Both the position numbers and the translations under genes were made by a program. Positions 27,752 through 29,146 of a DNA stretch of 36,604 nucleotides are shown one piece after another. Positions within the stretch are counted from its first letter, which is position 1; each line of letters begins with the position of its first letter. This stretch comes from Candidatus Sphingobacterium stercoripullorum. GTDB taxonomy: Bacteria; Bacteroidota; Bacteroidia; Sphingobacteriales; Sphingobacteriaceae. The notes below the pieces were generated by a model. It did not search any database. It was not told the DNA's origin and worked only from the letters and a program-made list of their open reading frames with translations. The stretch is taken from NCBI GenBank assembly GCA_019114715.1, contig DXEZ01000222.1, positions 1 through 36,604 of the forward strand, written 5' to 3'.

Positions 27752-27785
27752 AAAAAAGAAAAAGAGTAAGTCCGAACACTTACTC
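27752..27785 (-). terminator. Intrinsic terminator of rbfA
   Basis: On the minus strand GAGTAAGT-GTTCGG-ACTTACTC followed by TTTTTCTTTTTT; the rbfA stop codon lies in the stem. Confidence 0.85.
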
Positions 27786-28148
27786 CTCCTCATCATCCTT
27801 TTTTATTTTCTTAAATATTTCATCCATCTTCTCCACATAGACGTTAGTATCGTCTAAAAAGAATTCCAGTTCTGGAACGATGCGAACCACATGGCGTATA
27901 CGATTACCAAGCTTATAACGAATCTCACTGGTGTGCTTTTTCAATTTCTCTAAATCCTCTTCCGCGGATTTGATATTTAAAAAACTAAGATAAACCCGTG
28001 CTACTGATAAATCAGGCGTAGATCGTACTACTGTAACTGTAATAAAGGCACCTGGAACCCAGCCCATCGCTTCTTTTTGAAATATATCAGCTAACTCTTC
28101 CTGAATAACAGCTGAAAATCTCTGTTGTCTTTTACTTTCACTCCTCAT
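27780..28148 (-). CDS. rbfA: 30S ribosome-binding factor A
   Basis: MRSESKRQQRFSAVIQEELADIFQKE, FITVTVVRSTPDLSVARVYLSFL, PELEFFLDDT. Confidence 0.9.
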   Translation of the reverse strand: MRSESKRQQRFSAVIQEELADIFQKEAMGWVPGAFITVTVVRSTPDLSVARVYLSFLNIKSAEEDLEKLKKHTSEIRYKLGNRIRHVVRIVPELEFFLDDTNVYVEKMDEIFKKIKKDDEEE

Positions 28149-28174: not shown

Positions 28175-28182
28175 CAAAGATA
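28175..28182 (-). promoter_or_regulatory. Putative -7 element of rbfA
   Basis: TATCTTTG on the minus strand, 26 nt before the ATG; TTG at a suboptimal 15-nt spacing. Confidence 0.4.
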
Positions 28183-28359
28183 TATAAATTAGGTGAACAA
28201 CTTAGATTGTTAAATCTTGTTAATAACACCCGATAAATTAACTACAGATTCAATATACAATTTGACAAAGGAATGTCCTACTAAAAGCTGAAATACTTTT
28301 TTAATAACCCAAGGATAATCCAAGATAAAAAGTAAGTGTATACTTTACAATAAGTCTAT

Positions 28360-28397
28360 AAAAGTAAAAGGCATGAACGTTCATGCCTTTTACTTTT
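28360..28397. terminator. 38-bp perfect palindrome, terminator-like on both strands
   Basis: AAAAGTAAAAGGCATGAACGTTCATGCCTTTTACTTTT is identical to its reverse complement. Confidence 0.8.
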
Positions 28398-28546
28398 CAG
28401 TGTTTATAACCGGATAGAATGCAATGTCTTTCCTAGGGTAGTCAGCCCTATCATTCATCAAAAAATTTTGGTTTATTATTGGTGTTGTAAAAGTAAGCTT
28501 TAACTTACAAAATGTCTTGTCTTTAAACTTTCCATTCTCCCATTAC
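28361..28546 (-). ncRNA. Candidate small structured RNA, possibly 6S-like
   Basis: Promoter at 28552-28581, no ORF, strong terminator palindrome at 28360-28397. Ends pair as TAAtGGgAGAATG / CATTCTatCCggTTA, with internal hairpins GTAAG-TTAAAG-CTTAC and TAGGG-CTGACTA-CCCTA. Confidence 0.6.
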
Positions 28547-28551
28547 GACAA

Positions 28552-28581
28552 CAAACATAGAGATATAAAACATTCTCACAA
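28552..28581 (-). promoter_or_regulatory. Bacteroidota promoter of the candidate ncRNA
   Basis: Minus strand TTG (28579-28581), 19 nt, TATGTTTG (28552-28559). Confidence 0.7.
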
Positions 28582-28700
28582 AATGTTTTTACAACAAATA
28601 GTAATCACTCACTCACTGCGTGTCAACCTTACACATACCAAAACGTAAGTGTTAAAAAACCTTAACACTCTATTAATCAATACTTAAATAATCTGTAAAA

Positions 28701-28716
28701 ACAATGCTAGCATTGT
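28701..28716. repeat. 16-bp perfect palindrome
   Basis: ACAATGCTAGCATTGT. Confidence 0.8.
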
Positions 28717-29099
28717 AATAAAATCCTATTATAAACGTTATGTATTTTAATACTTTTTTTCCCCACCACCTACAATTGCAACAAAAATGTTAGAAACAAT
28801 CTAATGACGCAAAATAATTACGGGTAGTTTGTTGATTTCTCCATAGGTAATAGCAACACTTTAATCACCCCTACTGATAGTCTTAAAAAGAACCTCAAAA
28901 CCAATTATAAAGCAGGTAGAAGACCTTTAACACATTAATCTCTCCCTAACATTGAAATGATTGAAAAAAGGCCATAAACAAGCTAAAAACAAGCCGTATA
29001 TTTTATTACAGTAATAAGTCTTAATAGGCCGAAAGAAATATGGTAGATTATAATTAAGGCGAGTGGTAAGTCAGCTTGTAAGAAGGAAGCTTATAATAA

Positions 29100-29136
29100 C
29101 TCCTTGGTTATTTTTTTAGGGTAAATAACCAAGGAG
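29100..29136 (-). terminator. Hairpin at the 3' end of the cytochrome oxidase operon
   Basis: CTCCTTGGTTATTT (29100-29113), 9-nt loop, AAATAACCAAGGAG (29123-29136): perfect 14-bp stem; only a weak T-tract follows. Confidence 0.7.
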
Positions 29137-29146
29137 CACCATGTAT

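Follow-up and report, generated by a model that had tools for sequence, protein, structure and literature searches.

The minus strand of the window, the 36,604-nucleotide stretch of DNA analysed here, contains a predicted stand-alone gene for a small RNA (sRNA) of a new family, and the RNA is probably a trans-acting regulator. Comparisons with related genomes show this candidate to be a conserved, non-coding and independently bounded RNA gene. The window belongs to a draft genome (355 contigs, 85% complete), and 94 genomes served as the sample of its genus. The TAnnTTTG promoters, together with the 6S-Flavo and Bacteroidales-1 matches seen in its class, place the genus in the Bacteroidota. The original prediction, made from the letters of the window, had proposed an unannotated non-coding transcription unit at this place, with a promoter, two small interior hairpins, a strong hairpin terminator and no open reading frame, and had suggested from its paired ends that it might be a 6S-like RNA. 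The transcription unit and its parts were recovered in the analyses described below, but the 6S assignment did not hold.

The RNA gene has its own promoter and terminator

The following features were assigned in and around the RNA gene.

28357-28546, minus strand: small non-coding RNA of about 185-190 nt, with its predicted 5' end near 28546 and its 3' end in a U stretch near 28357
28552-28582, minus strand: promoter, read directly, consisting of TTTG (28582-28579), a 19-base spacer and TATGTTTG (28559-28552)
28600-28613, unstranded: palindromic operator-like site AGTRA-N4-TYACT, about 55-68 bases upstream of the start
28493-28508, minus strand: hairpin 1 (GUAAGU UAAA GCUUAC), a conserved helix
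28434-28450, minus strand: hairpin 2 (UAGGG...CCCUA)
28360-28397, minus strand: intrinsic terminator hairpin AAAAGTAAAAGGCATGAACGTTCATGCCTTTTACTTTT of 17-19 bp, identified by sequence and fold
28175-28182, minus strand: separate promoter element of rbfA, TATCTTTG, behind the sRNA terminator
27780-28148, minus strand: rbfA (ribosome-binding factor A; Pfam RBFA, E 3.8e-25), the downstream neighbour, outside the RNA

The sigma factor consensus of the Bacteroidota consists of TTTG at -33 and TAnnTTTG at -7 (PMC7366714), and the sRNA promoter, which had been noted as TTG-N19 and is seen as TTTG-N19-TATGTTTG, fits this consensus. Nearly all homologous loci contain TATGTTTG with TTG or TTTG located 17-20 bases upstream, and the RNA and the promoter block are conserved together. 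Starting from near 28546, the predicted transcript would have a length of about 187 nt, up to the hairpin at 28397-28360. The terminator hairpin is present at the equivalent place in relatives, where it shows many compensatory double changes. The sRNA segment folds better than 200 of 200 shuffled sequences (z -3.9), a value to which the terminator contributes much, and it does not contain an ORF of 100 aa or more.

The neighbours of the sRNA gene on the minus strand are the cytochrome oxidase operon (COX3, COX4, DUF420), rbfA and the glutamyl-tRNA reductase gene. The long hairpin CTCCTTGGTTAT...ATAACCAAGGAG at 29100-29137 probably terminates the cytochrome oxidase operon. Between this terminator and the sRNA promoter lie about 470 AT-rich bases (28620-29095) lacking an ORF of at least 100 aa, and in many relatives a divergently oriented argH gene is present in place of this stretch.

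The RNA is present in single copy throughout the genus

Plain blastn searches of the RNA against the genus resulted in short 5' matches only. The best of these (locus L002) corresponds to the start of a lipoprotein-like gene and was discarded as a chance match. Homologues were revealed by reading the sequences that precede rbfA in relatives. Of the 29 loci read, 27 contain a unit that is clearly related and shares the promoter, the hairpins and the terminator, and in the two remaining ones (genomes G030 and G076) the RNA is located 1.6 and 2.1 kb upstream of rbfA. A covariance model, named R1, was built from 24 relatives with the window left out. R1 scores 38.3 bits (E 1.5e-4) at 28548-28398 of the window, as against 15 bits (E 1.1) at the next-best place. 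This independent model thus matches exactly at the locus, far beyond chance.

Exactly one copy of the RNA was found per genome in all 94 genomes of the genus, and this, together with the conserved promoter, hairpins and terminator, strongly supports the predicted sRNA unit. In 60 of the 61 genomes in which both elements were located, the RNA is present upstream of rbfA on the same strand, with a median gap of 140 bases, measured from where the model match ends; in the 61st, the RNA is at a contig end. For one locus (G074:C264:20561-20916), rbfA matches in two pieces with a stop, which is probably an assembly or frameshift error. In a sample of 201 genomes of the order, the RNA was detected, in one copy each, in four genomes of one other genus of the family, and in no further genus. 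In those four genomes, the RNA and argH are divergently oriented neighbours and rbfA lies elsewhere, and thus the RNA is maintained outside the rbfA neighbourhood. Several members of the window's genus likewise have argH in divergent orientation to the RNA; in other genera of the family, the RNA was not found upstream of argH in the loci examined.

Conserved segments are mostly unpaired

Both interior hairpins are conserved. For hairpin 1, 95.8% of the alignment cells are paired, and one pair varies, from G-C to G-U and A-U. For hairpin 2, all cells (100%) are paired; its stem is AGAC/GUCU in all relatives versus AGGG/CCCU in the window, which corresponds to two compensatory pair changes in the window copy (A-U to G-C and C-G to G-C). 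In the model alignment as a whole, 97.9% of the cells pair, as compared with 32-48% when the alignment is slid. Compensatory changes are seen in hairpin 2 of the window and, many times over, in the terminator; covariation inside the RNA is modest, because its short helices mostly do not vary.

Most of the conservation lies in segments left unpaired by the model, namely GGGAGAUGA, UGAUAGAC..GUCUUAAAACUUG and CUAACCAAUUAUAAACUA. In the second and third of these segments, the window copy deviates in part. The conserved stretches UUAAAACUUG and CUAAUUUUG are incomplete in it, and due to this partial loss the window copy could be functionally altered.

An operator-like site is located upstream of the promoter

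In relatives, the palindromic site upstream of the promoter has the sequence AGTRANCACTYACTTT, followed by a T/A tract, and the two are located at about -50 to -65. The sole exact match to AGTRANNNNTYACT in the window is the one at 28600-28613, and AGTRANCACTYACTTTWTTT was present in 24 of the loci compared. The motif is found at the RNA promoter in most genomes of the genus, mostly as one site per genome, and the possibility that it defines a large regulon was rejected on this basis. Some genus members (L194, L205 and L222, within the motif set L193-L222) have a second conserved AGTRANCACTYACTTT site upstream of an ExbB-like gene. In the window, a copy with one mismatch, AGTATACACTTACTT, is located on the minus strand at 28330-28344, just behind the sRNA terminator and before rbfA.

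The RNA is distinct from 6S RNA, from an mRNA and from an rbfA leader

The RNA might be 6S RNA, or a second copy of it, and bind the RNA polymerase holoenzyme by mimicking an open promoter; its length of about 185 nt and the pairing of its two ends around an open interior in the window are in line with this. The end pairing is real for the window copy, with a z of -3.1 against shuffled 3' ends, but this part of the original prediction does not extend to the family. The 28 homologues, with the window counted among them, have a mean z of -0.28, and z is below -1 in 5 of the 28. The end pairing was consequently rejected as a conserved stem. The G-G/C-C pairs at the RNA ends are invariant, but the end pairing as a whole beats shuffles only in the window, and hence the feature suggesting 6S is not a property of this RNA. 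Moreover, the interior consists of two separate small hairpins side by side instead of a single long apical arm with a central bubble. The proposed search with the Rfam 6S models (RF00013, RF01685 and RF01693) yielded no match at the sRNA locus with E values up to 10, nor in nine relatives with E values up to 1. Matches to 6S-Flavo in other families of the class, of 76 and 49 bits, are sub-threshold but credible, and the 49-bit one also matches Bacteroidales-1, which is labelled in Rfam as suggested 6S-Bacteroidales. These matches are located between zapA and rny (gene names inferred from the neighbouring protein sequences). In the genus, the zapA-rny slot contains a different, highly conserved RNA with a length of about 175 nt and a closing stem that continues into a terminator. 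The copy in the window's genome is the following.

G000:C5:860-1031 (L115:361-532), minus strand: predicted 6S RNA of the window's genome, in the zapA-rny slot; also present in L090-L111 upstream of rny

This RNA folds as a closing stem, a central bubble and an apical arm. A model built from the zapA-rny RNA of the genus, R2, matches the 6S slot of two loci from other families with 30 and 28 bits. R2 does not match the window sRNA, and R1 does not match the 6S loci. By position, fold and model match, the zapA-rny RNA is the predicted real 6S RNA of the genus. Since a separate 6S RNA occupies the zapA-rny slot of the same genome and genus, and the two models do not cross-match, the window RNA is not a 6S RNA, an identity that is now scarcely credible. 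That it might be a second polymerase-binding RNA is conceivable but has nothing in its favour. Rfam appears to be blind to the 6S lineage of this genus: RF00013 gave a match in 0 of 41 genus genomes, and RF01685 gave none in the window's own genome. In genome G005 (L114), rny matches in two pieces with a stop, probably reflecting an assembly or frameshift error.

Two further explanations concern translation and the neighbouring gene. An AUG in GGGAGAUG, which is invariant in the aligned relatives and preceded by a purine-rich tract, could start a very short peptide for which the RNA would be the mRNA. This is very improbable, given that the frame opened by the AUG mostly has 2-13 codons, reaching 29 at two loci, that there is no shared peptide sequence, and that conservation of the RNA runs far past the stops of the short frames, in unframed segments; the short frame of the window, MESLKTRHFVS*, is not conserved in relatives. 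The invariable location of the RNA upstream of rbfA in the genus, on the same strand, at a median gap of 140 bases and with the terminator in between, would suit a cis-acting leader or attenuator of rbfA whose terminator is switched to control read-through. However, in 28 of 28 loci TAnnTTTG is present in the interval from the sRNA terminator to rbfA, with 2.35 expected from shuffled sequences, and rbfA therefore has its own predicted promoter. Two genomes have gaps of 1.6-2.1 kb between the RNA and rbfA, and at least one of these gaps contains a further gene, the RNA does not adjoin rbfA in the other genus, and no alternative antiterminator pairing was seen, all of which makes a leader quite unlikely. 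The comparisons across loci show that the predicted RNA is untranslated and does not serve rbfA as a leader. A role of rbfA as base-pairing target was also rejected: pairing with its start region is no better than with shuffled sequences (mean z +0.2). In view of this lack of a pairing signal, the rbfA neighbourhood of the RNA is probably merely positional.

Discussion

We propose that RNA polymerase would initiate at a strong housekeeping promoter preceded by a dedicated palindromic site, and that expression would probably be set by a factor binding at AGTRA-N4-TYACT. The conserved signals suggest that a transcript of about 185 nt would end at its own hairpin terminator, and this RNA would most likely be a regulator acting in trans. 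Contacts with mRNAs or a protein may be made by three strongly conserved open segments, namely AAGGGAGAUGA close to the 5' end, GUCUUAAAACUUG next to hairpin 2 and CUAACCAAUUAUAAAC ahead of the terminator, and hairpins 1 and 2 may serve to hold these segments open.

The main alternative to a trans-acting base-pairing regulator is a protein or ribosome partner, i.e., the RNA would work through the ribosome, a sigma factor or as a sponge of an RNA-binding protein, and not by base pairing. The highly conserved unpaired sequence, including a Shine-Dalgarno-like purine tract, fits contact with a protein or the ribosome as well as it fits a pairing seed. Predicted pairing with the 16S tail is nevertheless weak and shifts between sites, and we consider a partner of this kind somewhat unlikely. 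Less probable still is a broader proposal, namely that this is a housekeeping-like RNA, universal in the genus, that acts in a new way; it might, for instance, be dedicated to binding the ribosome or the polymerase, be specific to this branch of the Bacteroidota and be controlled by its own transcription factor.

To our knowledge, sRNAs have received little study in Bacteroidota other than Bacteroides and Flavobacterium. The presence of this RNA in every species of the 94-genome genus, its dedicated conserved promoter and its absence from Rfam make it well suited as a starting point for sRNA studies in this group. The check also led to the predicted real 6S RNA of the genus, located between zapA and rny and missed by the Rfam 6S models tried.

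Comparison with known RNAs

No Rfam 15 family reaches its threshold at the sRNA locus, and the predicted RNA is therefore a new, unnamed sRNA family; a description of it was not found in the part of the open literature that was covered. Sub-threshold Rfam matches (ohsC, sraA, STnc40 and plastid 3'UTRs) were rejected as artefacts of the terminator stem. The ohsC match, which is on the opposite strand, scores 30.8 bits versus a gathering threshold of 50, and the likeness of ohsC, sraA and STnc40 to the window RNA is limited to a long A/T-rich terminator stem. The 6S RNAs (RF00013, 6S-Flavo RF01685 and Bacteroidales-1 RF01693) resemble the window RNA in length, intergenic location, single copy number and genus-wide conservation. 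In contrast to them, the window RNA lacks the long single hairpin with a central bubble, its closing stem is not conserved, it has a separate terminator hairpin and it is located at a different locus.

Intergenic trans-acting sRNAs have been mapped in Bacteroides thetaiotaomicron (PMC7366714), and the Rfp RNAs are trans-acting sRNAs of Flavobacterium psychrophilum (PMC9723704). Whereas the window RNA differs from both in having no family-level Rfam match, it is like them in being an independent unit of about 180 nt with a TAnnTTTG promoter and no ORF.
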